Shown here piece by piece: positions 4,348 to 41,246 of a stretch of DNA of 43,728 nucleotides. The notes beneath the pieces are model-generated. The model had not been told where the DNA came from, made no database searches, and saw only the letters and a list, made by a program, of their open reading frames with translations. Made by a program: the position numbers and the translations under genes. Position 1 is the first letter of the stretch; each line of letters starts with the position of its first letter. The stretch comes from Oceanospirillales bacterium (GTDB lineage Bacteria; Pseudomonadota; Gammaproteobacteria; Pseudomonadales; Balneatricaceae): positions 1 through 43,728 of the forward strand of contig JAAEYW010000033.1 of NCBI GenBank assembly GCA_018223185.1. The letters are read 5' to 3'.

Positions 4348-4408
4348 CAGTACTGCCGGAATAAGTGACAAAGTCAGCTACATGACGAGGCTTAACTGAG
4401 AATCACCC

Positions 4409-4445
4409 AGCTCTGTGAATCAGACTAATACTGGTTCACAGAGCT
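4409..4445. terminator. Hairpin between convergent genes
   Basis: AGCTCTGTGAA (4409-4419) and TTCACAGAGCT (4435-4445) form a perfect 11-base stem with a 15-base loop, placed between the ends of the convergent TSUP and chemoreceptor genes. Position and symmetry suit a bidirectional terminator, but neither strand shows a good T-tract, so the role is inferred. Confidence 0.4.
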
Positions 4446-4471
4446 TTGCGAGCAGACCTCAATAAGAATAC

Positions 4472-11073: not shown

Positions 11074-12703
11074 TTAAATACTGCCCCATTACTATCACGT
11101 TATTGTTGTTTACCGGTGTGGCGTCAGGCTCGCCAGATAACGCCCAGCGCTGGGGACAGATCTCATCCGCCCCGTTGAAATCAGCGCAGAGCACGATAGC
11201 ACCCTGAAACGTGCTGGAAAGACTGCGGAGAACCTGCTGCACATCAGAGCTATGATGTGCGACATCCTCATCCAGCAGAAGCAGTGAGGGCTTTCGTAAT
11301 AATGCCCGGGCCAGCATGATCCGGTAAATCAGAGAGGCCGACAGGTTTGCCCCTCCCTCTTCAAGACCAGACTGTAACCCTTGCGCCAACTCCTGCGGAT
11401 TATCCAGGCGACACACTGCAGACACCGCCTGAAGATCTTCATCACTCAGTTTGCGGGCACCATACAGAAGATTCTTTTTCAGGGTTCCCCTTAGCAACGG
11501 CAGAGATGAACTGACAAGGCATAGATGCTGACTGATCACCCGGCTCCGGTAACTCTTTATATTTTTATCACCGAGCAAAATACGGCCACCACTGATCCGG
11601 GTGAGCCCGGCAATGGCTGACAACAAGGTGCTCTTGCCGCTACCCGACCCACCACAGAGAAGAATCCGGCTATTGGCATGAATAGTAAAAGACTGAGGCG
11701 CCAGACGGTTAGCGCAACACACCTCCTGCAGTTCAACCTTAAATACTCCGGCAACCCTGCTCCGTCGCCCTTCTCTGAATGAATCACGACTCAGAAACTG
11801 GACCAGCTTTTTCTCTGCGACTTTTTTCAACGTCCAGAATTCATAAAGCCGGGTCAATCGCCGCAACTGCCCCAGAAGATACAGGGCTGCGGTCATCAAC
11901 ACCGCCATATACTGAGCGCTGATAATATTTTGCTGCTGCAAATGTAGCCCTGTACCGATCAGAGACAACATCGCAAATAATAAGATAGCTTCATTCATCC
12001 CCCGCATCAGCGCGGAAGTACGGGCTTTACGGATCTGACTTTGCATTAACCGGTTCGACTGCCGGAGAAAACGCCGTGTCTCTTTCCCTGGCTGGTTATA
12101 GGCACGAATTAAAGGCAGCTGACGCAGCTTTTCGGTCACATTGCGTATCATCTCCCCCCGGCGGCGGCGCAATTGCTCTGATTGTACAAACAGATACCGT
12201 CCCAGCAGATAGTTGCCCGCGACTGCGACCAGCAAAGGAACCAGCAGAGCGACCACCAGCAGATAGTGCAATTGCAACAGAGCCAGCAGAGACACCGTAA
12301 ACCAGAGTCCAATCACAATCAGCGGCGCCATTCCCTGAACAATCCAGTTACGAATAGAGGTCATATCCCCCGTCAGTCTCAGCAATGTGCCGCCTTTGTC
12401 TGCAACACGGAAATCCTCAGGCGACAGATGTTGCGATTTTTCAAACACCCGGTGTCTTAACTGGAAAATATAACGCTGCGCCAGCAGTTCTGCATAAAAC
12501 CGCTCGATATATCGTCCTGCAGCCAGCAACATTATCACCACAGCCCCCAGTCCCCAGGCAACCGACGACGGCTGATCAGTGCCTTCTACAACATGGCGCC
12601 CCCAACCGATCAGTAAGATCAGGCAGACTGATTGCAGGACACCAGTCGCAGCAAGCAGCAACAGCTGCTGCCAGCGTTTCTCAGCCAGAATGGGCGGTAG
12701 CAT
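11063..12703 (-). CDS. Half-size ABC transporter (TMD-NBD fusion) with degenerate ATPase motifs
   Basis: The 546-residue protein has a six-helix transmembrane domain (about 1-300) followed by a nucleotide-binding domain, laid out like CydC-type exporters. Walker A is intact (CGGSGSGKSTLL, about 350) and Walker B keeps the catalytic glutamate (LLLLDED). The Q-loop glutamine is replaced (CLVSSS), the signature reads NLSASL instead of LSGGQ, the D-loop is AHHSSD, and the switch histidine is missing (VLCADFN). A homodimer would therefore have poor ATPase sites. The start at 12703 is chosen because GGGG precedes it and MLPPILAEKRW matches the usual CydC-like beginning; a GTG at 12742 is the alternative. 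It overlaps both neighbours in the operon. Confidence 0.88.
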   Translation of the reverse strand: MLPPILAEKRWQQLLLLAATGVLQSVCLILLIGWGRHVVEGTDQPSSVAWGLGAVVIMLLAAGRYIERFYAELLAQRYIFQLRHRVFEKSQHLSPEDFRVADKGGTLLRLTGDMTSIRNWIVQGMAPLIVIGLWFTVSLLALLQLHYLLVVALLVPLLVAVAGNYLLGRYLFVQSEQLRRRRGEMIRNVTEKLRQLPLIRAYNQPGKETRRFLRQSNRLMQSQIRKARTSALMRGMNEAILLFAMLSLIGTGLHLQQQNIISAQYMAVLMTAALYLLGQLRRLTRLYEFWTLKKVAEKKLVQFLSRDSFREGRRSRVAGVFKVELQEVCCANRLAPQSFTIHANSRILLCGGSGSGKSTLLSAIAGLTRISGGRILLGDKNIKSYRSRVISQHLCLVSSSLPLLRGTLKKNLLYGARKLSDEDLQAVSAVCRLDNPQELAQGLQSGLEEGGANLSASLIYRIMLARALLRKPSLLLLDEDVAHHSSDVQQVLRSLSSTFQGAIVLCADFNGADEICPQRWALSGEPDATPVNNNNVIVMGQYLNGK

Positions 12704-16956: not shown

Positions 16957-19176
16957 TTAGTCAGAATTGATGTCAGTCGGGAGAGGTATAAAGCCGCCAT
17001 TGGTGCCAAGCAGTTCAGCCAGGTCTTCAGCGGTAAGCGGCCGGCTAAACAAAAAGCCCTGCACCTCTTCACAGGCATGCTGCTGCAGGAATTTAAGCTG
17101 AGACACCTCTTCAACCCCCTCTGCGGTAACACTCAGTCCAAGATTATGGGCAACAGCAATAATCGCCTGAGTCACTGAAGCATCGCCCGGGTCTGTCGTC
17201 ACATGGGTGATAAATGAGCGATCCACCTTCAATCGATCGATAGGAAAACGTTTCAGATAACTGAGACTGGAATAGCCGGTGCCGAAGTCATCAATCGCAA
17301 GCTGTACACCCAAAGCCTTTAAGCGATGCAGGGTTTCTACCGACCCTTCAACATCATCCATCAACATATTTTCGGTGATTTCGAGTTCCAGACAATCAAC
17401 TGGCAACCCTGTATCGAGCAACACCTGATCAACCAGCTTTTCAAGATTTTGCCTGGCAAACTGACGCACCGAAAGGTTAACCGCAACCCTGATTTTCGGC
17501 AATCCCTGAAGCTGCCACTGTCGTGTTTGCCGACACGCCTCTCTCATTACCCATTCACCGATGGGTGCAATCAATCCGGTTTCTTCTGCTATCGGAATAA
17601 ATTCAACCGGCGAAACAAAACCCAGCTGGCGACTGTTCCAGCGCAGCAACGCCTCAACACCGACTATTTTGCCACTACTCATCGCTACCTGGGGCTGATA
17701 ATTCAGCGACAGCTCATTCGTGGCAATCGCATGACGCAGATGGCTTTCCAGCTCCAGCCTGCGTTTGGCAACGACATTCATCGACTTAACGAACAGCTCA
17801 TAACCATTTTTGCCCGCATGCTTAACATAATACATAGCCGCATCAACGTTTTTCATCAGGCTGTCTACATCTTCACCATGATGAGGAAAAATAGCGATCC
17901 CGATACTGGGTGTGATAACCACTTCATGGCCGGCAAGATCAATCGACAGACCGATAGACTCAAGAATCCGGCGGGCAACATTCTCAGCATCCCGGATCTG
18001 ATTGATTTCAGGCAACAGAACAGTGAACTCATCACCACCGAACCGGGCCACCAGCGGAGGCGGACTGCCCTCAGTGAACACAGTCAGGTCAGCGTCAGTA
18101 GAATTCAGCAGGCCCTGATCTGAAACCCGATCAGCCGTGCGGACACTGTCCGTCAACCGTCGCGCCACTTCCTTCAATAACAGATCGCCTATACCGTGAC
18201 CAAATGTATCGTTAATCCGCTTAAAATTATCCAGATCAAGAAATAGCACAGCCCCCAGGCACCCTTTGCGCTCCGCCTGATCGATTGCCAACTGCACCCG
18301 GTCACAGAATACACTCCGGTTTGAAAGGCCTGTCAGGCTATCAAACCGTGCCAGTTTCAACACCTGATCCTGAGCCTGCTTCAGTTCAGAAACATCCAGC
18401 ATAGTTCCGGCAATAATTGTTGTATTGCCCTGCTCATCACAAAAGACCTCAGCCTGATGCTGAACACTCTTAACACTCTGACCCGGCAGGCTGATACTGT
18501 GATTGATCCCAGACATAAAACCGGAGTAGCGGCAGTTCAGCAGTTGTTCAAGCCAGTGCCGCATCTGCGGCCTTTCATTCGCGGGGACACAACGCAGAAA
18601 GGTTCGAATACCGGCATGAGTAAGTCCACGCTTACTTCCCAGTAGCTGATAAAACTGATCAGACCAGTATACTTCGCCACTATTCCGATGCCACTCCCAG
18701 TTCCCCAGCCGGGCAATACGCTGAGCATTCCCCAGGCGCGCTTCACTCTTTTGCAACTGGCGCAACTGTTCAGTGGTATTGCTGGCGCGGATCATATAAT
18801 TCAGACGGTGCCCCAGAACTTTCCAGTTAAAGGGTTTGGAAACAAAATCGGTGGCCCCGGCGGCATAAGCCTCACGAACAGAGTCAATATCATCCTGGCC
18901 AGTTGCCATCAGGATCGGCACCAGCTTTCCGCAGGGCATACTGCGCAACTGACGGCAGACATCAAAGCCATTCAATCCCGGCATCTCGACATCCATCAGA
19001 ACAATATCTGGCTGCGAGTCCTGAAAGTCCTGAAGCGCAACCACGCCATTATCCGCCAACAGTACTTCGAAACCTTCCTGTTCAAGGGAGTGACTGGCCA
19101 GAATCCGGGCTGTGAGATCATCATCAACTACCAGCACCCGGTAGGCCGAAGGTTTGTTATCCACCTCACCCCTCAT
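16957..19176 (-). CDS. Receiver-PAS-GGDEF-EAL response regulator (c-di-GMP output protein)
   Basis: The 739-residue cytoplasmic protein has a CheY-like receiver (phosphoacceptor in [16 protein letters not shown], near residue 60), a PAS-like domain (about 155-270), GGDEF (signature near 377) and EAL (EALLRW near 506, then [10 protein letters not shown]). Both output signatures are complete. The RxxD inhibitory motif (RTAD) is present but is separated from GGDEF by an inserted segment of about 24 residues ([14 protein letters not shown] onward). It overlaps the hybrid kinase gene upstream and is its likely phosphorylation target through the Hpt domain. The start is ATG at 19176, with GTG two codons earlier as alternative. 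It is the last gene of the seven-gene locus. Confidence 0.93.
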
Positions 19177-22021
19177 GTTCACTCTCTGTGTTCCTGATGG
19201 TCATTAATATTTGCCGGGCTCTTTGATACTCAGCTTCAATCTCTGTCAATAATGCGGCTGCCTGTTCCAGCACCCCGTCCCGGCCAATTTGTTCTAACGC
19301 TTTACAGAGCTCTGCCAGAGTCATCGCTCCAAGATTATAACTACTTGATTTAAAACTATGGGCTGCAACCCTGAGCGTTTGTGCATCCTGCTCTGATATC
19401 GCCCGTCTCAGGCGCTTAAGATCGTCAGGTGATTTCTCAAGGTAGGCATCAATAATCTTTCGCAGAAACGCACCATTGGCATCCATTTCAATCAGTTGCG
19501 ATATAACATTCTCGTCTATAACCTCTTTATCCAGGTGGAATTTCTTATCGCCCGGGCTCTCCTCGTTGTCCCTGAAGTCCGGCATGAAACCACTGCCGCC
19601 AGCCCCCTCCAGCGACAGCCAGTGTCTGAGAACATGCGTGATCTGCTTTTTATCAAACGGTTTCGCCAGATAATCATCCATACCCGCTTGCAGACATCGC
19701 TGTCGGTCATCAGCCATCGCATTCGCGGTCAACGCGATTATGGGCAAATGAGGCCTCTGCTCTGCCTGCTCGCGTTTGCGGATCTCGGCGGTCGCCTGAT
19801 AACCATCCATCTCCGGCATCTGACAGTCCATCAACACAAGCTGATAGTCTTTCTCACTGATCATTTTCAATGCCTGCACACCATTTGCTGCAAGGTCGAC
19901 CCTGACTCCCAACCCTTTGAGCGCCTGAAGTGCATATTCCTGATTAACAGGATGATCTTCCACCAACAGGATATATCCCTCAATGGTGACCGCCTCTGAT
20001 GACGACTTAAAGTCTGTTATTTCTGATTCGGATTGTTCATCGGTTTTTGCCAATGTCAGACTAAACCAGAATGTCGTCCCCTGGTTCTGCTCACTGGAAA
20101 AATCAATCAACCCACCCATCATCTCGATCAACTGACGCGAGATTGCCAGCCCAAGTCCCGTTCCACCATAATTTCGGGTAGTCGTATTATCCGCCTGAGC
20201 AAAGGATTCAAAAATAACACTCTGATGTTCAGGCGATATCCCCACGCCGGTATCCGCCACACGAATCTGAAAGGACAGGCTTTGCGCAGTCTCTTCAAAC
20301 AGAACTGCAGTCACATCTATTGAGCCTTCACGGGTAAATTTAATCGCATTACCGATCAGATTGGTCAGTACCTGTCGCAGCCGTACAGGATCCCCCCGAA
20401 CAACGGTATTCAGTTCAACGGGGAGATTACAGGTCAGCTTCAACCCTTTCTTTTGCGCCTGCAGCTTAAAGATTGAAACCTGGGTCTGAATTAACTCAGC
20501 CAGATTCAGCGGCCGGTAATCCAGTTGTAACTTACCCGCTTCTATTTTCGAGAAATCCAGAATATCGTTGATGATATCCAGCAAACCTTCCCCGGAATAT
20601 CGAATCATCTGCATAAACCGACGCTGCTCATTGCTCAGATGGGTATCCAGAACCAGATCCGTCATACCCAGCACACCATTCATCGGTGTACGAATTTCAT
20701 GGCTCATGGTAGCCAGAAATTCACTCTTTGCTTTACTGGCACTGATTGCGATCTCTTTCTCTTTATGCACCTGCTGTATGGTGGATCTGATCGCCTTCTC
20801 CATAAACAGGAATGACTCGGCAAGACGACCTATCTCATCCGGTTTATTCCGGGCGAGATTAAGAATTTTCTGACTCTGTTCACCGGGTCGGATAAAGTCC
20901 TGATCAGGCAGTGATTTTGCATAAGATGCCAGTATATTAAGGGGTGTAGCCATTCGGTAGACAAGAATAAATGCGGCACTGATACTGGCCAGAAATATCA
21001 GCCCGATAATCAGACTTTGCTGGGCTACCACCGCCCGGCCAGGGGCTGCAATTTCAGACACCGGCACAACCACAGCGGAGTACCAGTCGAACGCTTTAAA
21101 GTAGCTGAAAAAGACCTGTACCTCCCGTCCGCCGGTAAATGCACTATAGTGACTGACAGAATTTTCACCCCGTTGATAGGCCGTGATAATTTGATCCAGA
21201 ACACCTGCTTTATTCCAGTCCAGGTCATCCGTTGTAATCGTTTCACTCAGGCGCTGCCGCGGAGGCTCTATAAGTATCTTACGGTCACCACTAAACAGAA
21301 TGGCATAGCCCGTTTCTGCCACCTGGAGTTTATTGAAAGTCAGACGCAGAGCATCAACAATGCGGCTCATTTGCTTCTGACTTTCTTCCTCGACATCAGC
21401 AAAACTGACAATAATCCCCATGGTCCACCCCCAGTTTGCCAAGGGGAGAAAGTAGCCCATATAGCGCCCCCCTTCGGGTTCGCCAGGCTTATGCCAGAAA
21501 AAGATTCCGCTATCCCCCTCTGACTTTAGCTGGTCAAAACGCATCGCCTGATGTAGCTGTCGCCCCTTAAGATCCCGCAGGCCTGCGATTGAAGTATTGG
21601 TAAGCTTCGAGTCGGTCGAGCCAACGATAATCCCATCCGGACCAAAGAGGATCAGATCACCATTATTAAAATCGACATCCGAAAGCCATTGACTGGCGAT
21701 CTCTTTCGCGGCCTCTTCAGAGAGCAGCCCTTTTGCCGATACTGCTGCGTAGCTATCAAGAACGGTTTGTCCAAGACGAGTGAGCTGGCGCATATCGGCT
21801 TTAATTTTAGTGAGAATATCCACCTTTTCACTGATCAGCTGTTCATAGCCGGCACGGATATTCAGATCAGCCAGCTGCAGCACGTTGCGGGCAGATTTCT
21901 GCTCAGCGACTTGCATCGCCTGCCCCACATCCCGCTGGGTGAAATACATCACGCCGGCTGCAGTACAGATCAGTACAGCCATAATCAGGGCGATAATTTT
22001 AAACTTGAAACTGGACAACAT
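19166..22021 (-). CDS. Hybrid sensor histidine kinase with Cache, HAMP, receiver and Hpt domains
   Basis: This 951-residue inner-membrane kinase has a first helix (about 8-28), a large periplasmic Cache-type sensor to about 330, a second helix, HAMP, a phosphoacceptor domain ([16 protein letters not shown], histidine near 438), an ATPase domain ([29 protein letters not shown]), a receiver (aspartate in [13 protein letters not shown] near 731) and a C-terminal Hpt ([14 protein letters not shown], histidine near 886). It can run a full His-Asp-His relay, with the downstream receiver-GGDEF-EAL protein as probable acceptor. It starts nine bases after the second binding-protein gene, which suggests those proteins present ligand to its periplasmic domain. 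Confidence 0.94.
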
Positions 22022-22030
22022 ACTCAGTAC

Positions 22031-23188
22031 TCAGGGTTGTTCTATCTGCCAAAAAAGCTGATCCGCTGCAGCCAAAAGCTCAGCGTTCAGGTAAAGTCCT
22101 ATCTGCTCTGCCGTTTTCAGATTAAGGGTAATTCTGTTTGCCTCAGCAGAGTGGTTCGCTAATGACGCGGGCACTGCACCCTTAAAAATACCTATGGCTA
22201 CATCTGCCAGCATCTGCCCCTCTTCGGGAAATCCTCGTGCCTGTGAAAGGCTCATCAGATATCCCTGTTTCACTTCATTCTGCCCATACTGTGAAAAGGT
22301 CGGTATACGGTGCTGGTTGGCAATATCTACCAACACTGGAATCGTGTCGCTGTTAACCCCTCCCTGAACAGTTACATAAACTGCATCAACTTGAGTTACA
22401 AGCTCACGGAAACAGTTAACCACTGATTGATTGGCCAGCGACTGATCGGCCACATCACTCTTGGTAAAGCAACTGACTACCTTAAAATTCCGCTCTTTTG
22501 CTAACCGTTGAATCGTATCAACAGACGCGTAACTGCGACCTTCAAAGCTGTCTTCATAAGCAACCCCCAGCGTTTTAAACCGGATCAGGTCATGAAACAA
22601 TGCGATCTGCCGTTCATAACGCAATGGATCTTCAGTGACATAGATATGCTGATAAGCGTTCCCCGGATCCCGGATCAGGCCTATACTGCGGGGATCACTA
22701 ACAGAGATCACCATGGTCGAAACAGCATGACGATCAACCGCCATATCGACTCCGGCCCAAGTTCCCATCGCGAGCAGTAAATCAACCTCATTTTCCTGAT
22801 TTAACCGGCTTATTGCCCGCTCACGCAGCACCGTTCGATAATTACGGTCCCAGCCTGCGCTGTAAAAACCATCTGGCAGAAATTCGAGATAATCGCTGTG
22901 TACATTAACAGCTAACCAGCTCCACAGTTCCCTTGCTGTATTAAGCTGCTCCGGAATAATAACCGGACTAATCCAACCCTGCTCTATGAGCCCTTCCACG
23001 GTGACTCTGAGGTAATGAGAATAATCAATGTATTCTCCTCCCTGATAGTACGCTAAACGCCATTTCTGGCCCTGATTCAGCACAGGCAAGCTATCTGACT
23101 CAGCCGCCTGAAGCGTCCCACCCGACAACAGTAATAAAAAACCTACCAGCCATGCCTGTAGTCTCTTCTTCCCCGATTTTATTAACAT
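22031..23188 (-). CDS. Periplasmic binding protein, ABC_sub_bind-like (second tandem copy)
   Basis: The 385-residue product has a signal peptide (to about residue 29, QAAE) and a fold typical of ABC_sub_bind (PF04392) proteins: a DLLLAMGTWAGVDMA strand-helix segment, SVSDPRSIGLI, a hinge TLGVAYEDSFEGRSYASV, then VYVTVQGGVNSD, IPTFSQYGQNEVKQG and a C-terminal NLKTAEQIGLYL helix. It is clearly paralogous to the gene just upstream (for example GGEYIDYSHYL against GGEYVDYQKIL). No permease or ATPase gene is nearby. It lies 29 bases after its paralogue and nine before the hybrid kinase, so a ligand-sensing role is inferred. Confidence 0.88.
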   Translation of the reverse strand: MLIKSGKKRLQAWLVGFLLLLSGGTLQAAESDSLPVLNQGQKWRLAYYQGGEYIDYSHYLRVTVEGLIEQGWISPVIIPEQLNTARELWSWLAVNVHSDYLEFLPDGFYSAGWDRNYRTVLRERAISRLNQENEVDLLLAMGTWAGVDMAVDRHAVSTMVISVSDPRSIGLIRDPGNAYQHIYVTEDPLRYERQIALFHDLIRFKTLGVAYEDSFEGRSYASVDTIQRLAKERNFKVVSCFTKSDVADQSLANQSVVNCFRELVTQVDAVYVTVQGGVNSDTIPVLVDIANQHRIPTFSQYGQNEVKQGYLMSLSQARGFPEEGQMLADVAIGIFKGAVPASLANHSAEANRITLNLKTAEQIGLYLNAELLAAADQLFWQIEQP

Positions 23189-23217
23189 AGCCCGCCGTTA
23201 TATTCCTTATTCTGGCT

Positions 23218-24378
23218 TTATTCTGAAGGGATATTCCTGTAAACCTCATCCGCAGCGCCCAACAGCAGCAAAGGCGGATTAAAACCAACAATCTCAGCCG
23301 TTTTCAAATTCACAGCCATGCGTGGAGGTTCTTCAAAAAACTGAGTTAGCTGATTAGGCAATGCACCATTAAATACTTTGGCAAATGTGGAAGCATGAAA
23401 TTCACCAATATAGCGAAAACCTGCCTGGGATAAACTCAGTAGAAACCCTTTTTTAACCTCGTCCGATCCAGACTGTGAAAACGTGGGCACCCGGTTTTCA
23501 TTGGAAATTTTTACCAATTGGGCAATGCTATGACCATTCACACCGCCCTGAGCAGTCACATAAATAGCATCTACCTTCGGTGCAAGAGTACGGAAACAAT
23601 CAGCCACACTGACTTCAGCTATAGTAATATCACTGATATCACTTTGAGTGTGGCAGCTAACAATCGCGAATCCCCGCTCATGGCTCAGTCTTTCGATGAC
23701 CGGAAGCGCTGCGTAGCTTCGGCCATTATCGGTATCTTCATAGGCAATCCCGAGTTTCTTGAAATTGACAATATCGTGAAATACCCGAACCTGGCGCTCA
23801 TGGCGGTTTGGATCTACCGCTGCGTGAATATGATCATATCCTGAATCTTCAACACTCTTAATAATACCTGCCGACAATGGGTCCGTAGCGGACAGGACCA
23901 TTGTCGGGGTATGGTGACGATCATTCGAAAACGCTTTCCCTGCGGAGGTCCCCATCGCAATCATCAGATCAATATCACCTTTACGATTTAATCGGTTAAT
24001 GATTTTTTCGACCATCTGGCCACGCACACCTTCATTCCAATGCGCTGAATAGTGTGCATCATTAACAAATTCGATGTAGTCGCTGTGAATGCCATTCTGA
24101 AGCCAGTGCCAAAGCTGATCAGTCTGCTCCCCTTCCTGATCTGGAATTTCAACCTTTTCAATCCAGCCCAGCTGCATTAACCCTTTTATGGTTTCTATGA
24201 GAATTTTCTGATAGTCAACATACTCCCCACCCTCAAAGTATCCGACTCGCCATCGCTGATCGCCATTCATTGCAGGCTTTGTTGAAAAGATAGCCTTATC
24301 TGCTGGCACACCTGCTTGCACCACCGACACGGTGAAACCGGTTAAGAGTACCAGGACCAGACTTCTCATAAAACGCAT
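23218..24378 (-). CDS. Periplasmic binding protein, ABC_sub_bind-like (first tandem copy)
   Basis: The 386-residue product has a signal peptide ending near VQAG. It matches its downstream paralogue along the whole length, with DLMIAMGTSAGKAFS, SATDPLSAGIIKS, LGIAYEDTDNGRSYAAL, IYVTAQGGVNGHS and the C-terminal NLKTAEIVGF helix. Members of this family bind small molecules such as amino acids. The start at 24378 is certain in practice: AAAGGAGGG lies just before it, whereas the longer frame (22 codons) lacks a ribosome site. An 85-base gap to the preceding gene could hold an extra promoter, and contains a TACACTTGTTT motif related to a recurring palindrome. The strong ribosome site suggests high expression. 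Confidence 0.9.
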   Translation of the reverse strand: MRFMRSLVLVLLTGFTVSVVQAGVPADKAIFSTKPAMNGDQRWRVGYFEGGEYVDYQKILIETIKGLMQLGWIEKVEIPDQEGEQTDQLWHWLQNGIHSDYIEFVNDAHYSAHWNEGVRGQMVEKIINRLNRKGDIDLMIAMGTSAGKAFSNDRHHTPTMVLSATDPLSAGIIKSVEDSGYDHIHAAVDPNRHERQVRVFHDIVNFKKLGIAYEDTDNGRSYAALPVIERLSHERGFAIVSCHTQSDISDITIAEVSVADCFRTLAPKVDAIYVTAQGGVNGHSIAQLVKISNENRVPTFSQSGSDEVKKGFLLSLSQAGFRYIGEFHASTFAKVFNGALPNQLTQFFEEPPRMAVNLKTAEIVGFNPPLLLLGAADEVYRNIPSE

Positions 24379-24463
24379 AGTCCCTCCTTTTATCAGCATA
24401 AGCACTTCAACCTCTTTTATACACTTGTTTGAAACGAATCGCATGCCATAAAGACACCAAAAT

Positions 24464-26035
24464 TCAACTCAGTTTCCTCAAAACAACTTTACCTGAGAGA
24501 GACTCTCTCAGATCCAAAGAAAGAGAAGACAACCACTCACTCTCCAACTGTTCCCGTGCTACTACGTCAGGAATAGTTTCAGCTAACGATGCAAAATGTG
24601 CGTCAAAAACGCTGATTTTGGAAATATGATTCAATTCAGCAAGAGAAACTGAACCGCTTGCCAACATCTCCAGAGGGCCAGCAGGGAGTAATTTCGCCCC
24701 TTGCTCTAGCATTATCGTCTGCATGCCTGAAAGATAACCGTTAGTAATACAGCCCGTCACTGCAGAAGCTCTCTGAAACTCTTTTGCCTGCCGCAACAGA
24801 TCTGATATCCCCTCCTGCATCATAGGAAGATATTCCGCCTGATAATATCCACCTAAACAGGTCACTCCCCGAGCCAGCGCAATGACCAGATAACAACTGA
24901 AAATTGAAGGCAGCAGCAAGCCCTCACTTATCGCTTCAGACAACGCATCAGCCTCCAGGCTATAACGATACTCGGTTCCGGTATCATCACAGCCACAGAG
25001 CATCATCTTCCCTTCACACTCAGTCAGCATCAGCGGGATTCTGCACAAGCGACGATCCACGCCCCAGAAACAAAAAGTACCGCATCCAGACGCTTGAATC
25101 TGTGCAATGTCCCGTCTGTTATCCCAACGTTTCTCCAACAATCTCTGATCCCAACACCCGGGCACCTTATCCAGCCTCTGGTATAACTGGCCAATCATTT
25201 GGTCATTAAACAATAGAGAAGCAAGGCTGCTCGAACTTTCTAAGTCTTTGAGCAATAAGCCTTCTGACAGTTTTTCAAGCTCAATCGTTATTAAGTCTGG
25301 CATCTTAACAAAGGGACAAAACAATCGGCTCCAGATACGCTGATTTAAGATCACAGACTGTGCAGAATAACTTTGTTGTGTCTGAACATCCTCAGCCAGA
25401 TAGTCCTCATCAATTAATAAATTTAAAGCAGCCTTAAGCGACGAATTAATTTGCGCCTCGCCCTTAATTCTCTTCTGCACGGACTTTAATGTTTCAACCC
25501 CCAAGCCTTTTACACGGGCAACAAGTTGCCGGCGAAGTTTACTGGCAAAAAAAGGCAGTTTTAGTGGCCATGTACCGCCGTTACTACTATCGGCACCATA
25601 TAATAGTGCTCCGCGGGGATAAGTGAGATTATTTAAAGGGATATTCGCACAGGAAAATACCGGGATCGTAGTAACGCCTTCCACCTGCCGTTTAGCCAGC
25701 CCAAATAGCAGGCTGCCCTGAACTGACTGGGCGAAAAAATCAACGCCATGATGGTTGGTGGTCAGGGCAACCGGGTGCCGGAGAAAATCGGTTGCGGCCC
25801 TGTCTGCCATCTGTTCACCCAGCAAGGGAGCTAAATATTCGTACATCACCTCAGCAATGTCCGAGCGTGGCTGATAGCTCTGCTGACTGATCTGACAAAT
25901 CTGCTGAAGATATTCGGATACACTGCAATCCCCGGCTGACTGCAACACTTTATCAACAACAGGAACCTGACAACGCACAGCGTTAAGTAACTGATCAGCC
26001 ACCCCTGATTCTTTGCACTTTACCGGGTTATTCAT
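24464..26035 (-). CDS. Unrecognised 523-residue protein of the epimerase-exporter locus
   Basis: I do not recognise a family. There is no signal peptide or membrane helix, so it should be cytoplasmic. Distinctive segments are LTTNHHGVDFFAQSVQGSLL (91-110), VFSCANIPLNNLTYPRGALLYG (about 126-147, quoted here only by its ends, VFSCAN and YPRGALLYG), SNGGTWPLKLPFF and a cysteine-containing CGTFCFWGVDRRLCRIP followed by LCGCDDTGTEYRY. The paired histidines and the well-ordered aromatic and glycine motifs look like an enzyme active site; the four cysteines could bind metal. The gene overlaps the MFS transporter stop by eight bases and precedes the binding proteins, so it belongs with biosynthesis or turnover of the transported compound. 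The start at 26035 is preferred to one 21 codons upstream, which would overlap the MFS gene by 71 bases. Confidence 0.8.
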   Translation of the reverse strand: MNNPVKCKESGVADQLLNAVRCQVPVVDKVLQSAGDCSVSEYLQQICQISQQSYQPRSDIAEVMYEYLAPLLGEQMADRAATDFLRHPVALTTNHHGVDFFAQSVQGSLLFGLAKRQVEGVTTIPVFSCANIPLNNLTYPRGALLYGADSSNGGTWPLKLPFFASKLRRQLVARVKGLGVETLKSVQKRIKGEAQINSSLKAALNLLIDEDYLAEDVQTQQSYSAQSVILNQRIWSRLFCPFVKMPDLITIELEKLSEGLLLKDLESSSSLASLLFNDQMIGQLYQRLDKVPGCWDQRLLEKRWDNRRDIAQIQASGCGTFCFWGVDRRLCRIPLMLTECEGKMMLCGCDDTGTEYRYSLEADALSEAISEGLLLPSIFSCYLVIALARGVTCLGGYYQAEYLPMMQEGISDLLRQAKEFQRASAVTGCITNGYLSGMQTIMLEQGAKLLPAGPLEMLASGSVSLAELNHISKISVFDAHFASLAETIPDVVAREQLESEWLSSLSLDLRESLSGKVVLRKLS

Positions 26036-27695
26036 TAGAAACGACCTTAACGTGTGAAGTGACTCTGACACCCCGTGGTGACCAGGTGAGCAGGGCAAAC
26101 AGCATCGCCGTGATAAGATAGGCTAGACCAAACAACATAACCCCCGACTCAATATCAGTCATGGTAATAATCCCGGCAAAGAGCACAGGCCCCAGCATCT
26201 GTCCGATCCGGCTACTTGAGCGGAAAATCCCCATCGATTTACCTTCTCCATACTGAGCGGTTACCGGTTGTTTCAAAACAAAAGCACTCTGTGCGGAAAG
26301 TACCAGGCAGTTAGAAAGCCCCAGCAACAGAATTGCCAGAGTAACGGCCATGACACCGTCCAACAGACTGAAGACGAGAAAAGCGAGACCGCCAAGCGTA
26401 CAACCGAGAATTATCGGTGCCCGCTTAGTCTCGCTCAGATCAGCAAAGCGACCGATGGCCGGTCCAAACAGAGCCAGAATCACACCAAACAGCATTAACA
26501 CCTGCCCAATGGACGCATCATTAACTCCTGACCGGTTGAGATAGAGCGGGCTGAAATAGTTTAGAAACCCCACCACGGCAATGGACGCAGGCATACTGCT
26601 AAAGAGCACTGCCGCCAGCACCTGCCGGTCACCCAGAAACTGCATAAACGAGCCTTTTTGCTGCGGCTTCACAGTGTTAGCTGGCTCCGCTTCTGCAGCT
26701 TCGGATGGCACTGGAGTCTGCCTCAGAATAATCAGGCCGTAAACCACAACACTGAACACAATAAAGGCGCCTGACAAAAATACCGGGCCATAACCAAACT
26801 GCTCGGCAAGTACGGCTCCGGTTGCCGCTCCACATATGCTGCCTGAATACAGCCCGGCAAACAGATGAGCCAGTCCTCTGGACTTATTGCTATTATCGGT
26901 ATGTCTGATGACATAACTCTGAGACGCTAACAGAGTCAATCCATAACCAAATCCCAGCACCCCGCGGGAAAGAATAAACTGCACCGCATCCGGTGCCAGC
27001 CAGGAATAGAGACATCCCCCCCCTGTCAGCGCCAGTCCGGTATAAAAGGGAGGCTTCCATCCGCTTTTGTCTAACCAGACACCACATATCAGGATAGCCA
27101 CGCCCACACAGAGAAACTCAACCGATATTGGCAAGCCGATTAACAGGTCAGGACTAAAACCGTTAAAGCTCCGGGGCAGTGCTTCCATATGCAGCGGAAT
27201 AAACGCCATCGACAGATCAATCCCAAAGAGGAATAGAAAGATGGCCGGACGCATCTGCTTATAACACTCAGAGCCGGGCTGTTTTATACGGCAGCGACTC
27301 TGCTGTAACACAGCCAGCTCCAGCGACACCAGAAACGTGATTAAGATAACGGTGGCCAGATCAAACAGATTCAGGAGTCCATTACCAAACCAGAAATGCT
27401 GCAGACTAAATAACACAAGAGCGATGCTGCTCAACCCCATCATCACCTGACTGAGGTGTTTACCACTTAAAGCCTCTCTTCGGCGACCATACCCCAAAAC
27501 GACAAGCAGCAATAACGCTGTCATAAAAGCCGCGGAGCCCCCCCAACGCAGTATCTCACTCAACAGGATATCGAAGCCCGCCCGTTGATAGGCAGCAAAC
27601 AGCAGTAAAGCAGCCAGCAGAAGAATTGAGCAGAGTTGCCCCACGCCCCACAGAAACACACCGGGCTGTTGTCTGCAGGCTGTTTTTACGTTCAT
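26028..27695 (-). CDS. MFS transporter with an extra N-terminal membrane region
   Basis: The 555-residue protein has a C-terminal major facilitator domain (about 150-545) with 12 predicted helices, including the family loop LDKSGWKPPFY after helix 2 and GRFADLSETKRAPI after helix 8. About 150 residues with four hydrophobic segments precede it (AFMTALLLLVVLGYGRRR, VILITFLVSLELAV), which standard MFS exporters lack. A drug- or metabolite-efflux role is plausible, with the direction inferred from the family type. The start overlaps the epimerase gene by four bases (ATGA), with AAGG upstream, and the stop overlaps the following unknown gene. It is the natural candidate exporter for whatever the locus makes. 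Confidence 0.88.
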   Translation of the reverse strand: MNVKTACRQQPGVFLWGVGQLCSILLLAALLLFAAYQRAGFDILLSEILRWGGSAAFMTALLLLVVLGYGRRREALSGKHLSQVMMGLSSIALVLFSLQHFWFGNGLLNLFDLATVILITFLVSLELAVLQQSRCRIKQPGSECYKQMRPAIFLFLFGIDLSMAFIPLHMEALPRSFNGFSPDLLIGLPISVEFLCVGVAILICGVWLDKSGWKPPFYTGLALTGGGCLYSWLAPDAVQFILSRGVLGFGYGLTLLASQSYVIRHTDNSNKSRGLAHLFAGLYSGSICGAATGAVLAEQFGYGPVFLSGAFIVFSVVVYGLIILRQTPVPSEAAEAEPANTVKPQQKGSFMQFLGDRQVLAAVLFSSMPASIAVVGFLNYFSPLYLNRSGVNDASIGQVLMLFGVILALFGPAIGRFADLSETKRAPIILGCTLGGLAFLVFSLLDGVMAVTLAILLLGLSNCLVLSAQSAFVLKQPVTAQYGEGKSMGIFRSSSRIGQMLGPVLFAGIITMTDIESGVMLFGLAYLITAMLFALLTWSPRGVRVTSHVKVVSNE

Positions 27696-28846
27696 GTCGC
27701 CAGCCTTGCAACAAGCCCGACACTTTCATCCCGCGTAGCAGAGAGTTTCTCAACCACCGGATGGTTCACAGGCAATAACCGGTAAACGCCATCAAATAAC
27801 ATCACCGGTATACTCTCCAGCGACCAGCCGCTATCAGCGCGATGAATTCGAATCCGTGCCTGGTTATCATGCCAGCGGCAACGGTGAGGTAAAATATCAA
27901 TTGTATCCGGAGTTAACTGGCTGATCTGACTATAAATATACGCCACAGCCAGAGCGCCGGTACCGCACGCAAGGGTTTCACGGTTTATCCCTCGTTCAAA
28001 ACATCGGTTCTCAATAACCCCAACGCCTTTCTGTCGTGCCAGATTGACATTAATACCCGCGGGAAACATCGCTTTATAGTGATTATTAAAATACTGCCCG
28101 ATATGCTCTACCAGCCAGGTGCCAAAACTTTCACGGCGATCTTTGACCACGCCCGATTCAGAAGTGCCAAAAATACAATCAGCAAGCTCAGGAATAGAAA
28201 AATCGGTGTCTGGAAATATCACCAGATGGGGCTCTCCGGTAAACACCAGATGCGCCTTAATCTTTAATAGAGTTGAGTTGCTGAAACTCCGCAAGTCTCC
28301 TGCACGAAACCCGATTGTGATCTGCGGGTAATAGTCGATAGTCGGGGTAAAAGGGGATGAGTGCTCTGGAACAGCCAGTTCAACCGGGGTGCGCCGGGGA
28401 TGACCCAGATTTACCCAACCTCCCTGCTGATCGTTACCTGCACCGATCTGTATGGTTTTGGGTGTCTGCAGTGGTATTTCTGTCATGATCGACGCGGATG
28501 ATACGCCATGCTCATTGAAAAGATGGCTGGCAACACACATTAGTCCATTGCCACAGCAGAGCGCTTCTTCGCCATCCGGTTCAAACATGCGAAACAGATA
28601 TTCGGCCTGATCAGCATTCGGCAGACTACGCCAGTACCCCCTTGATGCGGCAATCGACTCCAGTATTTCAGGGCTGCAACGCTGAATCACCAATAAGTTA
28701 TCGCAGCCAATACCGAAGCTGGTATTCGTCGCCTGAAAGGCAAACCGGGACATCTCCGCTTCGGTCAGCAGAGAACGCTCTGTTGCATCAACAATAACAA
28801 AGTTATTTCCGCACGATGTGTACTTCACAAACGGAACTAAGTTCAT
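27692..28846 (-). CDS. Diaminopimelate-epimerase-like (DapF fold) isomerase
   Basis: The 384-residue product matches the DapF fold: YTSCGNNFVIVD at the start, the first catalytic cysteine in CCGNGLMC (Cys98), GEPHLVIF, and the second catalytic cysteine in LACGTGALA (Cys294). Both thiols needed for two-base, PLP-independent epimerisation are thus present. It is about 110 residues longer than housekeeping DapF, with extra sequence around 56-86 and a C-terminal tail. Relatives in metallophore clusters (CntK) racemise histidine, so a non-diaminopimelate amino acid substrate is likely. It is the first gene of the seven-gene locus, overlapping the MFS gene. GGAA lies seven bases before the ATG. Confidence 0.9.
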   Translation of the reverse strand: MNLVPFVKYTSCGNNFVIVDATERSLLTEAEMSRFAFQATNTSFGIGCDNLLVIQRCSPEILESIAASRGYWRSLPNADQAEYLFRMFEPDGEEALCCGNGLMCVASHLFNEHGVSSASIMTEIPLQTPKTIQIGAGNDQQGGWVNLGHPRRTPVELAVPEHSSPFTPTIDYYPQITIGFRAGDLRSFSNSTLLKIKAHLVFTGEPHLVIFPDTDFSIPELADCIFGTSESGVVKDRRESFGTWLVEHIGQYFNNHYKAMFPAGINVNLARQKGVGVIENRCFERGINRETLACGTGALAVAYIYSQISQLTPDTIDILPHRCRWHDNQARIRIHRADSGWSLESIPVMLFDGVYRLLPVNHPVVEKLSATRDESVGLVARLAT

Positions 28847-29093: not shown

Positions 29094-30929
29094 TTAGCTG
29101 ACGACTTTATTCCGACCGGCTAATTTAGCCTGATACAGCTTTTCATCAGCACAACGAAGCACCTCATCAAAGCCACTATCCTCTGACCAGATAACCACTC
29201 CTGCACTGAATGTCAGCTGCACAACAGCACCATCCTCCAGCTCTATCTGACTCTGCCGCAGAGATGACAGTAATGTATCCACCAGCCGGTGCGCTGTGGA
29301 CAGATCCGTATCGGGCAGTAACAGTACAAACTCCTCCCCCCCGATACGACTAAACAGGTCAGTTTTACGCAACATCCCCTGCATAATACGGGTAAACTCT
29401 TTGAGTGCCCAATCGCCAGCAGCATGACCATGCCGGTCATTAATATCCTTAAAACGATCCAGATCAATCATTGCTATCGCAATTGTGGTGGTTAGCCGTT
29501 GAGCCCGGTGGCGCTCTTTTATCGCTTCCTCAATCAACGCCCGACGGTTCATAAGTCCGGTCAGCGCATCTTCCCGGGCCAACCGGATAAGTTCCTCTTC
29601 ACTGCGCTGCAATGTATTAGTCATACGATTAAAAGCACTGGCCAACTGTCCTATTTCATCAGCGGAACTAACTTCAGCCTTAACAGAAAGGTCTCCTGCC
29701 TCAACCTGATCTATCGATTGTTTCAGTCTGGCCACGGGCGCGACAATATTTTGCGCCAGCATATAAACAAGAACAAACAACAAACACATGCTGACTATCA
29801 GCCAGGCTGAAGCTTCCAGCAGCAATTTTTTGCCGCCTTCACGCCAGCCACTGTCAGCAATGAATACCAGTAGGGAGAACGAGGAAAACTGATCAATATA
29901 GTCCTGATACTCTGCGACAGATACATTCAGAGCGGTAGCACTCATCTGTGCTATCACTTTATTGAGCACCTGGTCATCGGCAACGGGCGCAGATGCCAGA
30001 AAACCATCAAACTGATGACTGAACTTACCCGCTGGCGGCAATGACAGACTAAAATTTTTCAACGCTACGGTATTCAGATAGCGATAATCGGATTCAACGC
30101 GCAGAGGATTAGTTCTCAACAGCACAACGTCAGCAGCATTTATGCCCCTGTCCGCCAGACTCTGGCGCAGATCATTGAGAATCTCATCAATCTGAGTCCG
30201 GTCCAGAAAAGCGGTAACATAGCCTTTCAAATGCCCGGCACAGGTGATCAGAGGCTGGGTAAAAAGAAACGTGTCACGTTCGGATGACAGCCCCATAAGC
30301 ACAGCTTCCCGCTTCCCGGCATAATCTATATGTACCGGAGGGCGCGCTATCTGTGATGCCAGACTGAATATTCTGTTTTGCAAATGGAAGTAACTGGCAG
30401 AGTCTGCCTCACCTTTTCGCTCCATGCTCAACGCTTGCATAAACAGTGCGTTCTTTTGCTGCTGCAGTTCTGGCAGATCATTCTGCCAGCGTTTAAATAA
30501 TGCTTCGATATGCTTGAAGCGCCAGACATCAAATAGCTGGCTATTTTGAAGTATTCGGGTCGAATCTGCCTGAGACTGAGTCACTCTGGCAACCTGACTA
30601 GCCTCCACCTTTCCCATCTCATCGGCAATCACCAGTGCAGAAAACCCCTGACTCTGCTGCAAGGCATTACGTACCGACAACATAAAATTACTGGCACTAT
30701 CAATGGCATCGCAATTATTAATGCTTCCCCCCAGAAGCACGAATTCACTGACCCTCAAACTGAGAAAATCGTTCAGTCGCTGAGCACCCGAGGTCGACAC
30801 CAGAGAGCCAATATTACCAACCTGTTCAGCTGTAGCATCCAGCTGCACCTGATAATAGCTCCAGGTAAAGCCCATCACAGGCAGTGCAACCGGAAACATC
30901 CAGAGCAGAATTTTGGTCAGCAGGTTCAT
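29094..30929 (-). CDS. HAMP-GGDEF diguanylate cyclase
   Basis: The 611-residue inner-membrane protein has a helix near 4-24, a long mainly helical periplasmic sensor (to about 360), a second helix (ASAWLIVSMCLLFVLVYML), a HAMP domain (about 385-435, VAPVARLKQSIDQVEAGDLS) and a C-terminal GGDEF domain with GGEEF near 528. The inhibitory RxxD (RKTD) lies in the usual place just before it, so product feedback is expected. There is no EAL domain. Mono-cistronic: 164 bases from the epimerase locus upstream region and 271 from the ABC permease gene. The ATG at 30929 is chosen over a TTG eight codons upstream. Confidence 0.93.
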   Translation of the reverse strand: MNLLTKILLWMFPVALPVMGFTWSYYQVQLDATAEQVGNIGSLVSTSGAQRLNDFLSLRVSEFVLLGGSINNCDAIDSASNFMLSVRNALQQSQGFSALVIADEMGKVEASQVARVTQSQADSTRILQNSQLFDVWRFKHIEALFKRWQNDLPELQQQKNALFMQALSMERKGEADSASYFHLQNRIFSLASQIARPPVHIDYAGKREAVLMGLSSERDTFLFTQPLITCAGHLKGYVTAFLDRTQIDEILNDLRQSLADRGINAADVVLLRTNPLRVESDYRYLNTVALKNFSLSLPPAGKFSHQFDGFLASAPVADDQVLNKVIAQMSATALNVSVAEYQDYIDQFSSFSLLVFIADSGWREGGKKLLLEASAWLIVSMCLLFVLVYMLAQNIVAPVARLKQSIDQVEAGDLSVKAEVSSADEIGQLASAFNRMTNTLQRSEEELIRLAREDALTGLMNRRALIEEAIKERHRAQRLTTTIAIAMIDLDRFKDINDRHGHAAGDWALKEFTRIMQGMLRKTDLFSRIGGEEFVLLLPDTDLSTAHRLVDTLLSSLRQSQIELEDGAVVQLTFSAGVVIWSEDSGFDEVLRCADEKLYQAKLAGRNKVVS

Positions 30930-31114
30930 TTGTAACAACCCGACAAGCAACACATTGAAGACAGCAACGCCCGGAGATATTCTGTCAAACAGCTCTCAGG
31001 CATAACCGCACGCCCGTAAATTAATTGCCCCTCAGCCCCGCTGTCTGAGACATTTGACCGATGCTCTGTCATTACTCGCACAATAGTTCGCTCAGCTTTT
31101 AGTTAACAGTGCTA

Positions 31115-31200: not shown

Positions 31201-32682
31201 TCAGATATGACGCTGAATCCGGCGAGCCAGGAGATCAACCAGGATGTTCATCATCGCAGCGACCAGAATCAGCAACAGGGCAACATCAAAACGGATCTCC
31301 TGAATCGCGCTATCGACAAAAAAACCGATGGTATGAATACCCAAAATTCCCAGAATAGCGGTCTCCCGCATGATCACTTCCCAGCGATAAAGCATAAAGG
31401 ATAGGAACGCCGGATAACTGCGGGGCAATAACTCATAGAAATAGCGGTCAAGTTGTCTTTCGGGTGCATCAGGTCTTAATTGTATCTCATTGCTATTACG
31501 CCCCGTCAGATATCCGATCAGGGCGCCATTGTGAATCGCCAGTGCGATCACGGCAGGGAGCATTGAGGGCCCCAGAAGCTGCAACAGAATATAAGCCAGC
31601 AAATACTCGGGAGTAGAGCGGGCAATAACAAGAAAAACATGTCCGGGAAACCGTCCGGCAACGCCAAAGCAATAACGATTTATCAGCGGAAAAAACAGCA
31701 GCGCAAACAAACCGGTCACGACCAGTGCAATCTGTGACAACAACAGCGTATTCCAGACTCCGGGCAGCGCCTGATCAATAACAATAGTACCCGCCCAGTC
31801 GGCCAGAGATTGCCAGTTTGCCTCACCACTACGCAGAGGAGCAGGCACTATATCCTCAGAAAAAAACCGCCCGACATTGCCCCAGATGATCGGCAGGCCC
31901 GTCCCCATAAAAAAGGGCGCGCCCAGCAAAAACAGAGGCAGGGTCCAGCGTCTGAGCCACACTTTCTTCGTCGCAATTAAAAGATAAAACAGGATCATCA
32001 GCCCCGCAACCTCAGGGTAATAACCTTGAGAAAAGGAGGATTCGAGATAGTAGCCGAGGGTTGGCAGCCCGACAAAACCCAGAATTGCGCTACTGCGAAT
32101 ACCACATTCAAGACGATAGGAGGTATAGCTGACCAGATGAGGCCAGGCCTGCGGTAACCGGGTGTAGAGAATAGCACTGAAAAAGCCACTGCCGGCAGGC
32201 AGTGCATATTCTGGATGCTTCGGAACCTGCCCAAGAATCTCAGCATACATACGGGCAAATATACCTGAGTACGGAACCGCAATAGCCAGCAGTCCGGTTA
32301 ACGGATGAAGACCAAAAAACTGCAAAAAAATCAACGCCCAGAACAGCTCATGGATCGAGCGTGTCAGAGCACAGATTGCGCGAATAAAGGTATGGTGAAA
32401 AGCCAGAGCCAGCAGAAAACCACAGACAACGGCCAGCGCCACACCGGCGAAAGCAAAAGCCAGTGTGGCCAGCAAAGCTTCGAAGATCAGGCCGGAGTCC
32501 ATCAGCTGTGGAGAGATAACCCCCTGCAGCAGTCGTCCCATCTCACTCCAGGGGTCCAGACTGGAAATTTCCAGATCAGCAAATGGCAGACAGATCAGTG
32601 CAATCAGCAGAAACCACAGGCTGGTCCGCACACCACCGGGCCAGCGATAGCGTGGCAAAGACAGTATTTTAGTAGAACTCAT
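31201..32682 (-). CDS. ABC transporter permease, two fused PhnE-like modules
   Basis: The 493-residue membrane protein contains two tandem permease modules of the binding-protein-dependent type, each with about six helices. The coupling-helix regions are readable in both halves (AGSGFFSAILYTRLPQAWPH, and ELLPRSYPAFLSFMLYRWE), as are repeated RSIHELFWALIF and ARSTPEYLLAYIL segments typical of PhnE. A single polypeptide therefore supplies the whole channel, as in the putative selenate-type branch of phosphonate importers. It overlaps the ATPase gene by 14 bases. Substrate identity is not proven by the sequence. Confidence 0.9.
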   Translation of the reverse strand: MSSTKILSLPRYRWPGGVRTSLWFLLIALICLPFADLEISSLDPWSEMGRLLQGVISPQLMDSGLIFEALLATLAFAFAGVALAVVCGFLLALAFHHTFIRAICALTRSIHELFWALIFLQFFGLHPLTGLLAIAVPYSGIFARMYAEILGQVPKHPEYALPAGSGFFSAILYTRLPQAWPHLVSYTSYRLECGIRSSAILGFVGLPTLGYYLESSFSQGYYPEVAGLMILFYLLIATKKVWLRRWTLPLFLLGAPFFMGTGLPIIWGNVGRFFSEDIVPAPLRSGEANWQSLADWAGTIVIDQALPGVWNTLLLSQIALVVTGLFALLFFPLINRYCFGVAGRFPGHVFLVIARSTPEYLLAYILLQLLGPSMLPAVIALAIHNGALIGYLTGRNSNEIQLRPDAPERQLDRYFYELLPRSYPAFLSFMLYRWEVIMRETAILGILGIHTIGFFVDSAIQEIRFDVALLLILVAAMMNILVDLLARRIQRHI

Positions 32683-33319
32683 TCAGGGTACTTACTGTCA
32701 GCCTTTCCGCCCGTTCATCAAGGACAAGCTTACCATCCTGAATGGCTATAATCCGCTGACCATAGCGCAATGCCCGGTCAACATCATGCAGTGTAATGAC
32801 GGCGGTAATAAAATTCTGTCCAAGTAGTGACATCACCCGGTCAGCTTCCGGGCCATCTAAGGCAGACACCGGCTCATCAGCCAGTAACACTGAAGATTGC
32901 TGATAAAGAGCCCGGGCAACCGCAACACGCTGCTGCTGACCACCGGACAGATCCGCCACTGCAGAGAAACACTTATCGCTTAACCCTAACCGTTCAAGCA
33001 AAGGTAATATTTCAGCCACCCGGGCTGGAGTGGGCCATACCAGGTTTCGTATATTGTGAAACACAGTATGGCGGGACAGGCATCCCATATAGACATTATG
33101 AAATACGCTCAGACTCTCGACCAGCCCTAACCCCTGGGGGATCAGGGCGCATTCGTTGCGGTTTTCGGTATAGATGTGATTCAACAGGGTCGACTTACCA
33201 CACCCGCTTTTACCCAGCAGAATAAGATGCTCGCCAGTCCTGATATCCAGACTGACAGGTTCCAGAACCCGCTGAGCACCGTATCCCAGCGAGTCACTCT
33301 GTATCGCAAGAGCAGTCAT
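32669..33319 (-). CDS. ABC transporter ATP-binding protein, PhnC-like
   Basis: The 216-residue ATPase has intact Walker A (GKSGCGKST), signature (LSGGQQQRVAVARAL), Walker B (VLLADEPVSALDG) and switch histidine (TLHDVDRAL). It would energise import by the adjacent fused permease. The Q-loop (ALIPQGLGLVESLSVFHNVY, with glutamine) is of the PhnC kind. Its start codon shares one base with the stop of the binding-protein gene, so the three genes are translationally coupled. Confidence 0.94.
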   Translation of the reverse strand: MTALAIQSDSLGYGAQRVLEPVSLDIRTGEHLILLGKSGCGKSTLLNHIYTENRNECALIPQGLGLVESLSVFHNVYMGCLSRHTVFHNIRNLVWPTPARVAEILPLLERLGLSDKCFSAVADLSGGQQQRVAVARALYQQSSVLLADEPVSALDGPEADRVMSLLGQNFITAVITLHDVDRALRYGQRIIAIQDGKLVLDERAERLTVSTLNEFY

Positions 33320-39075: not shown

Positions 39076-39106
39076 TCAAACCTAATTGCAGGTTAAAACC
39101 AAAACC

Positions 39107-41227: not shown

Positions 41228-41246
41228 CTTTCTGACAAAACGGATT

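Follow-up and report, generated by a model that had tools for sequence, protein, structure and literature searches.

Several described bacterial systems resemble, in one part or another, the locus considered here. The autoinducer-2 system LuxP–LuxQ of Vibrio joins a periplasmic binding protein to a hybrid kinase and a phosphorelay, and the norspermidine system NspS–MbaA of Vibrio cholerae sets cyclic di-GMP (c-di-GMP) through a periplasmic binding protein. MbaA is a direct GGDEF-EAL membrane receptor. The ComQXPA pherotypes of Bacillus have linked, polymorphic genes for signal making and reception, and the staphylopine cluster (CntK/CntE) combines a DapF-like racemase with a transporter of the major facilitator superfamily (MFS). 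The DapF superfamily also includes the O-ureido-serine racemase (PDB 7vdy), which serves a natural-product pathway. The present locus, found in a 43,728-nt stretch of Oceanospirillales DNA (contig JAAEYW010000033.1; hereafter, the window), unites seven genes for an epimerase (EPI), an MFS transporter, an unrecognised protein (UNK), two binding proteins (SBP1 and SBP2), a hybrid histidine kinase (HK), and a GGDEF-EAL protein. The titles and abstract openings listed by searches of open-licence PubMed Central papers contain no description of this seven-gene set.

We read the locus as a self-made signal system with c-di-GMP output, in which a synthase and a receptor co-vary on a conserved chassis as in quorum-sensing pherotypes. 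This reading, which in our judgment has slightly better than an even chance of being right, builds on observed gene content, co-occurrence, motifs, and tree discordance.

A conserved seven-gene unit

All seven open reading frames (ORFs) are on the minus strand, between 16957 and 28846, where a preceding sequence-only reading had placed them; the starts are those of that reading, taken from the ORF translations. In gene order they are EPI (27692..28846; 384 aa), a DapF-superfamily epimerase/racemase (Pfam DAP_epimerase, 3.9e-18); the MFS transporter (26028..27695; 555 aa; MFS_1 from residue 152, 4.3e-33); UNK (24464..26035; 523 aa), which is enzyme-like and has no Pfam match at E<=0.1; the periplasmic binding proteins SBP1 (23218..24378) and SBP2 (22031..23188), both ABC_sub_bind by Pfam (1.3e-14 and 5e-16 for the two); HK (19166..22021), with the Pfam order dCache_2-HisKA-HATPase-REC-Hpt; and the GGDEF-EAL protein (16957..19176), with REC-PAS_3-GGDEF-EAL, PAS_3 being below its cutoff. 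EPI and MFS overlap by 4 bases (27692-27695), MFS and UNK by 8 (UNK starts at 26035), and HK and the GGDEF-EAL gene by 11 (start at 19176), and gaps of 85, 29, and 9 bases separate UNK from SBP1 (start at 24378), SBP1 from SBP2, and SBP2 from HK. The sequence-only reading had given these spacings exactly to the base; its naming of a DapF-like protein, an MFS, two binding proteins, a kinase with Hpt, and a receiver-GGDEF-EAL protein agrees with Pfam, as does its description of the 523-residue protein as unrecognised.

The nearest named relatives of UNK are in Amphritea (Gammaproteobacteria). Among 116 genomes of the family, 14 contain UNK (E<=0.001) and the identical 14 contain EPI (E<=1e-20), none having just one of the two. 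Close MFS matches (E below 1e-140) were obtained in 13 of these 14 genomes, G074 being the exception; twelve more MFS matches, at 25-30% identity, are of a distant kind, ten in other genomes and two as second matches in G054 and G105. SBP1-type proteins (E<=1e-40) occur in 20 of the 116 genomes, including all 17 of the genus. The order of all seven genes is kept in 10 of the 14 family loci (the window and 13 others), so that the gene order, which the sequence-only reading had proposed to seek in other genomes as a trial of its idea, is conserved beyond this strain. Locus L024 has no SBP2, L028 no MFS, and L021 is cut by a contig end; in L026 the last protein is matched at residues 15-313 only.

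Two peptide patterns, run against 84,980 species genomes, gave 34 UNK loci, a lower bound; judged by record titles, these are 18 in Gammaproteobacteria, 11 of Desulfobacterota type (two from one isolate), and 5 in Actinobacteria. In high-GC loci, ORFs were chosen by GC content at third codon positions, length being unreliable there. Twenty loci lie outside Amphritea and the Actinobacteria. EPI is found in 17 of them, and in the other three a contig end truncates the upstream side. MFS is likewise present in 17; two loci are cut, and L044 has none between EPI and UNK. SBP is present in 16, the sequence of the remaining four breaking off at UNK or the kinase or shortly beyond. A kinase match including the sensor end occurs in 11, the rest giving none or kinase-domain pieces. 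The set thus recurs in further Gammaproteobacteria and in Desulfobacterota, and there also reordered, as GGDEF/EAL-HK-EPI-MFS-UNK-SBP-SBP (L048, L049, L058) or as EPI+MFS-UNK-HK-SBP-SBP (L054, a metagenome-assembled genome in which EPI and MFS are fused in one 1212-aa ORF). At E 1e-6 and >60 bits, no additional neighbour family was seen in at least three of the 22 loci compared, some of which are short, and in L015 and L047 the longest ORF was in the wrong frame. Since the set recurs across genera and phyla, beyond chance, the seven genes are a conserved unit.

Two congeners, G008 and G013, have listener-only loci (L064 and L065), where ABC genes are followed by SBP1-HK-GGDEF/EAL at the site. 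EPI, MFS, UNK, and SBP2 are absent from this site, and each genome has one SBP1 match and no match for EPI, UNK, or MFS. In the HK tree, L064 and L065 group at 100/100 (bootstrap/SH-aLRT, as for all supports below) with L024, which bears EPI-MFS-UNK. Conserved linkage of a candidate making gene to a candidate receptor gene, and listener-only variants, were both observed; in a signal system, UNK would be the putative signal maker.

Exchange and co-variation of UNK and SBP1

Protein identity between the window and its sister L018 (G003) is 86% for EPI, 88% for MFS, 64% for UNK, 78% for SBP1, 81% for SBP2, 92% for HK, and 94% for the GGDEF-EAL protein. In 300-base blocks of DNA, it is 60-77% in UNK, including 900 bases at 60-62%, 51% at the UNK-SBP1 junction, 72-76% in SBP1, 73-91% in SBP2, and 80-91% outside these three genes. 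Similarly, L017 and L022 share 60-73% of DNA positions in UNK, 71-87% in SBP1, and 78-95% elsewhere, except for 71% in the last, non-coding block. By 40-residue protein bins, the block in the window extends from approximately UNK residue 120 to approximately SBP1 residue 320 (23480..25680, minus strand). SBP1 is polymorphic up to about residue 320, in the numbering of the 408-aa ORF starting at 24444, and its residues 321-400 are conserved, being at least 92% alike in all six comparisons made.

Single-gene trees were computed under LG+G4, as were the approximately unbiased (AU) tests, with the window, ten Amphritea loci, L026, and L060 wherever the gene was present; L021 (G010) was excluded as a fragment, and joined trees comprised ten rows, without L024, L026, and L060. 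The window and L018 are joined in the trees of EPI (75/65), MFS (90/94), SBP2 (69/68), HK (100/99), and the GGDEF-EAL protein (100/99). In the trees of UNK and SBP1, the window is placed with L017 among L017/L020/L022 (83/87 and 71/68). Constraining the window to L018 was rejected for UNK (p 3.6e-5), SBP1 (0.029), and both joined (4.9e-5), and the joined five-gene backbone rejected the window with L017 (1.5e-96) as well as with the L017/L020/L022 clade (3.1e-5). When the window was held with the wider expected clade, rejection followed for UNK (0.023) and was borderline for the joined pair (0.049). In a second pair, the backbone makes L017 and L022 sisters, and this sisterhood was rejected for UNK (4.2e-4), SBP1 (0.049), and the two joined (9.4e-5). 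The trees therefore support UNK and SBP1 as an exchanged, polymorphic block. In two species pairs, candidate making and receiving genes appear to have diverged and been exchanged together on a conserved backbone, as in pherotypes, and the variants may differ in specificity.

Partial rank correlations, given HK and GGDEF-EAL distances, were calculated over the 55 pairs of 11 Amphritea loci, pairs that are not independent. They amount to 0.69 for MFS-SBP1, 0.63 for UNK-SBP1, 0.46 for MFS-UNK, -0.29 for EPI-UNK, -0.06 for EPI-MFS, and -0.07 for EPI-SBP1; those with SBP2, over 45 pairs, are 0.32 for EPI, 0.21 for UNK, 0.15 for MFS, and 0.03 for SBP1. SBP2 adjoins SBP1 and yet does not co-vary with it, which disfavours adjacency as the whole cause of the UNK-SBP1 co-variation. 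Joint variation and exchange of UNK and SBP1 is the pattern expected if UNK sets the variant made and SBP1 the variant heard.

Component proteins and neighbouring genes

EPI belongs to the DapF superfamily (PF01678, 66.1 bits, cutoff 34.7) and has both catalytic-type cysteines (CGNG at 98, ACGTG at 293). Its score against the DapF model TIGR00652 is 111.9 bits, below the cutoff of 114.65, and a separate DapF in the same genome (G000:C26) scores 314.4. The asparagines of the DapF motifs FNADGS and GNPH contact diaminopimelate. In the alignment of EPI with the DapF of its own genome, these motifs have become FEPDGE and GEPH; GEPH is kept in all seven distant EPIs aligned, and the other motif varies slightly. 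Because the diaminopimelate-contacting asparagines are replaced, EPI likely acts on a substrate other than diaminopimelate. The O-ureido-serine racemase structure 7vdy aligns with EPI over residues 259-332 only (E 1.3e-06).

The MFS domain of the transporter follows an N-terminal part of about 150 aa, and in relatives from other taxa this part reaches about 590 aa (longest ORF of L015). These long N-terminal parts comprise membrane and periplasmic segments by eye, with one weak sCache_3_2 match (E 0.11). L015 itself, plasmid pDVUL01 of Nitratidesulfovibrio vulgaris DP4, has a 988-aa MFS with SBP and UNK, near a gene annotated as a CesT-type chaperone. A long N-terminus is also seen in an MFS, distantly related to that of the window, within a trio separate from the set (L071:8533-12463, L072:7153-11157, L073:8047-12042), where a 261-279 aa membrane-protein-like ORF, the 713-720 aa MFS, and a binding protein, which Pfam identifies in L071 as ABC_sub_bind, adjoin genes that resemble, by eye, those of a type VI secretion system.

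Thirty columns are invariant across 29 UNK sequences (the window and 28 of the 34 loci; L033, L048, L051, L057, L058, and L059, most being fragments, were left out), including T90, H93, Q224, N229, E252, D262, R387, C391, and Q397. In L058, the Olavius algarvensis Gamma 3 symbiont, HK and UNK are in pieces (1412-6276 and 10049-11585), broken or mis-sequenced. The AlphaFold2 model of UNK is confident (pLDDT 93.3, pTM 0.92), and Foldseek found no match to it at E<=0.001 among 350,542 PDB chains (best 0.66) or in the viral library BFVD (best 0.088); the UNK profile gave one match to PDB sequences, at E 0.13. The predicted fold thus appears to be new relative to the PDB and BFVD libraries searched. 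No UNK was found in the viral contigs searched. An identity as a BshC-like ligase, suggested by eye, was dropped: PF10079, with matches in 3 of 14 control genomes, has none in the genome that holds UNK, and the Foldseek search at E<=0.001 gave it no support. A siderophore synthetase was likewise rejected, with no Pfam or NCBIfam match at E<=0.1 and one chance-level NCBIfam match at 0.18. A ten-pair hairpin at the UNK 3' end (24491-24513, minus strand), a consensus match only, is a possible attenuator ahead of SBP1.

The gene company of UNK in Streptomyces and on N. vulgaris plasmids suggests that it is an enzyme of small-molecule making. On L016, a Streptomyces plasmid, UNK (29-30%) stands beside an annotated MFS and in the company of an EPI homologue (30%), and their companions, annotated or matched, are of the TauD-type, cupin, methyltransferase, SDR, amidinotransferase, zinc dehydrogenase, ATP-grasp, and FemAB-like kinds; the annotated amidinotransferase has no Pfam match. 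In L053, a chromosomal record of another Streptomyces, an MFS by Pfam directly precedes UNK, and an ATP-grasp protein of the L-amino-acid-ligase type is present. EPI profile matches occur in L016 and L053 only, among L015, L016, L053, L056, and L061-L063.

SBP1 has an N-terminus that is signal-peptide-like by eye. SBP2 is absent from L024, L064, and L065 and evolves with the kinase backbone. The only NCBIfam binding-protein model matched by the SBPs is TrpX, below its cutoff. The CmpB-type permease PF06541, found in 1 of 14 control genomes (Lactococcus lactis), has no match in this 99.4% complete genome; with no cognate importer of that type, SBP1 and SBP2 are probably sensory rather than partners of one. 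HK has intact SHEIRTP, DCQMP, and AHSFKS motifs, and its LuxQ_Vibrio match (343.7 bits) is below the cutoff of 1200. The GGDEF and EALL motifs of the last protein, a receiver-PAS-GGDEF-EAL protein, are intact.

Two neighbours were considered as parts of the system and dropped: the phosphonate-type ABC genes (31201-34260), which accompany the set within the genus only, and a GGDEF gene (29094-30953), which is missing from L019, L020, L022, and L024. On the plus strand, the window also has a gene for a single protein combining NMT1, SBP_bac_3, and GGDEF domains (34498-36852), and a TonB-dependent receptor gene with the gene of a third ABC_sub_bind protein after it (39086-42209).

Readings of the locus and known systems

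We hypothesize that EPI and UNK would make a small, probably amino-acid-derived molecule, which MFS would export. The molecule would bind SBP1, and loaded SBP1 would act on the dCache sensor of HK, SBP2 supplying a second input or a modulating one. Following the observed order of domains, phosphate would travel along a His-Asp-His-Asp relay that ends at the receiver of the GGDEF-EAL protein, and c-di-GMP would be set in this way. UNK would determine the variant of the molecule made and SBP1 the variant heard, with EPI, MFS, SBP2, the kinase, and the output protein as the chassis. The sequence-only reading had sketched a similar course of making, export, detection, and response, with a D-amino-acid-type or otherwise epimerised compound; it gains from linkage in two phyla, from EPI/UNK co-occurrence across the 116 genomes, from the listener loci, and from the joint exchange of UNK and SBP1, whereas the D-amino-acid product, export by MFS, SBP binding of the product, and a change in c-di-GMP are predictions.

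Several points weigh against a self-made signal. Biosynthesis, ligand binding, export direction, phosphorelay flow, and the c-di-GMP effect are predicted from sequence. L028 (G074) and L044 hold EPI and UNK without MFS between them, and the G074 genome has no MFS match at E<=1e-30. Nine of the twenty loci discussed above have no kinase sensor-end match, among them L042, L043, and L050 despite several kb of flank, so that the kinase is not always adjacent to the set; and N. vulgaris plasmids carry SBP, a long MFS, and UNK, with no EPI found. For SBP1 alone, the AU p-values are marginal (0.029, 0.049) and the window with the wider expected clade was not rejected (p 0.196); all these p-values are exploratory, because the clades were named after the identities had been seen and the model was LG+G4. 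The MFS-SBP1 correlation exceeds that of UNK-SBP1, though MFS is not exchanged in the window, which disfavours UNK-SBP1 as the only linked pair. Finally, UNK and SBP1 are neighbours, and one recombination tract could move both without functional coupling.

The main rival is nutrient sensing and use, in which MFS would import an outside compound, EPI and UNK would convert it, and SBP1/SBP2 and the kinase would report it to c-di-GMP. Racemases can act in catabolic pathways, and nutrients are commonly sensed through SBPs. Because the direction of MFS transport is inferred in the self-signal view and neighbouring genes can move together uncoupled, a catabolic system with a sensed outside compound is a possible account; moreover, in G005, G006, G015, and G016, genomes with a distant MFS only and no EPI or UNK, a single SBP1-like gene stands away from this site. 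However, the Streptomyces UNK sits in clusters with biosynthetic-type genes, the listener loci retain sensing without the enzymes, and no additional recurrent gene family was seen at the loci. In this account, which we consider unlikely, UNK and SBP1 would co-vary because both must fit the local compound.

Two neighbouring units without a common logic, an EPI-MFS-UNK operon and a sensory operon with the UNK-SBP1 exchange as a neutral recombination tract, would agree with the separation of the modules in listener loci and with the five Actinobacterial loci, where nothing matched the SBPs or the kinase of the window. In contrast, the modules stay together, in differing orders, in two phyla, and the divergence covers the same two genes in two species pairs, which makes this explanation quite improbable. 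A staphylopine/opine-type metallophore or siderophore, with a chelator made by EPI and UNK, exported by MFS, and sensed in loaded form by the SBPs and kinase, is more doubtful still: the racemase and MFS exporter resemble the staphylopine set, and MFS weakly matches the FslB rhizoferrin exporter of NCBIfam (26.7 bits, cutoff 600), but this alternative of the sequence-only reading loses ground since no uptake gene family, TonB receptor or ABC permease, was seen to recur beside the set, and in Pfam and NCBIfam none of the seven proteins matches IucA/IucC, a nicotianamine-synthase-like protein, or an opine dehydrogenase, the last two absences having already been remarked in that reading.

A bolder form of the self-signal hypothesis is advanced tentatively, as having somewhat the worse of the chances: an undescribed class of communication, in which the new-fold UNK and a DapF-like racemase would make related molecules, a separate co-inherited SBP1 variant detecting each, with a shared kinase/c-di-GMP output, private dialects in sister species, and some species as listeners only. 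If true, this would add to Gram-negative signalling a class that has a new synthase family, is tied by one operon to c-di-GMP, and shows a synthase-receptor polymorphism like that of Gram-positive peptide systems. A function would also be gained for the UNK family, which spans three phyla, for which no Pfam match or solved relative was found, and which marks unexplored Streptomyces clusters. Because some loci are in named collection strains (Amphritea atlantica DSM 18887), the hypothesis is directly testable.

Set against the known systems, the locus differs in each case. Compared with LuxP–LuxQ, it has two ABC_sub_bind proteins and a GGDEF-EAL output, its kinase itself contains the Hpt domain, and its operon includes candidate genes for synthesis and transport. 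Compared with NspS–MbaA, a kinase and a receiver are interposed, and candidate synthesis genes are linked. The staphylopine cluster is set apart by the lack of nicotianamine-synthase-like and opine-dehydrogenase matches among the seven proteins of the locus, and the O-ureido-serine racemase was compared through EPI alone. ComQXPA uses a peptide signal and belongs to Gram-positives, whereas the locus combines a candidate small-molecule enzyme and a periplasmic binding protein with a kinase that follows the species phylogeny.

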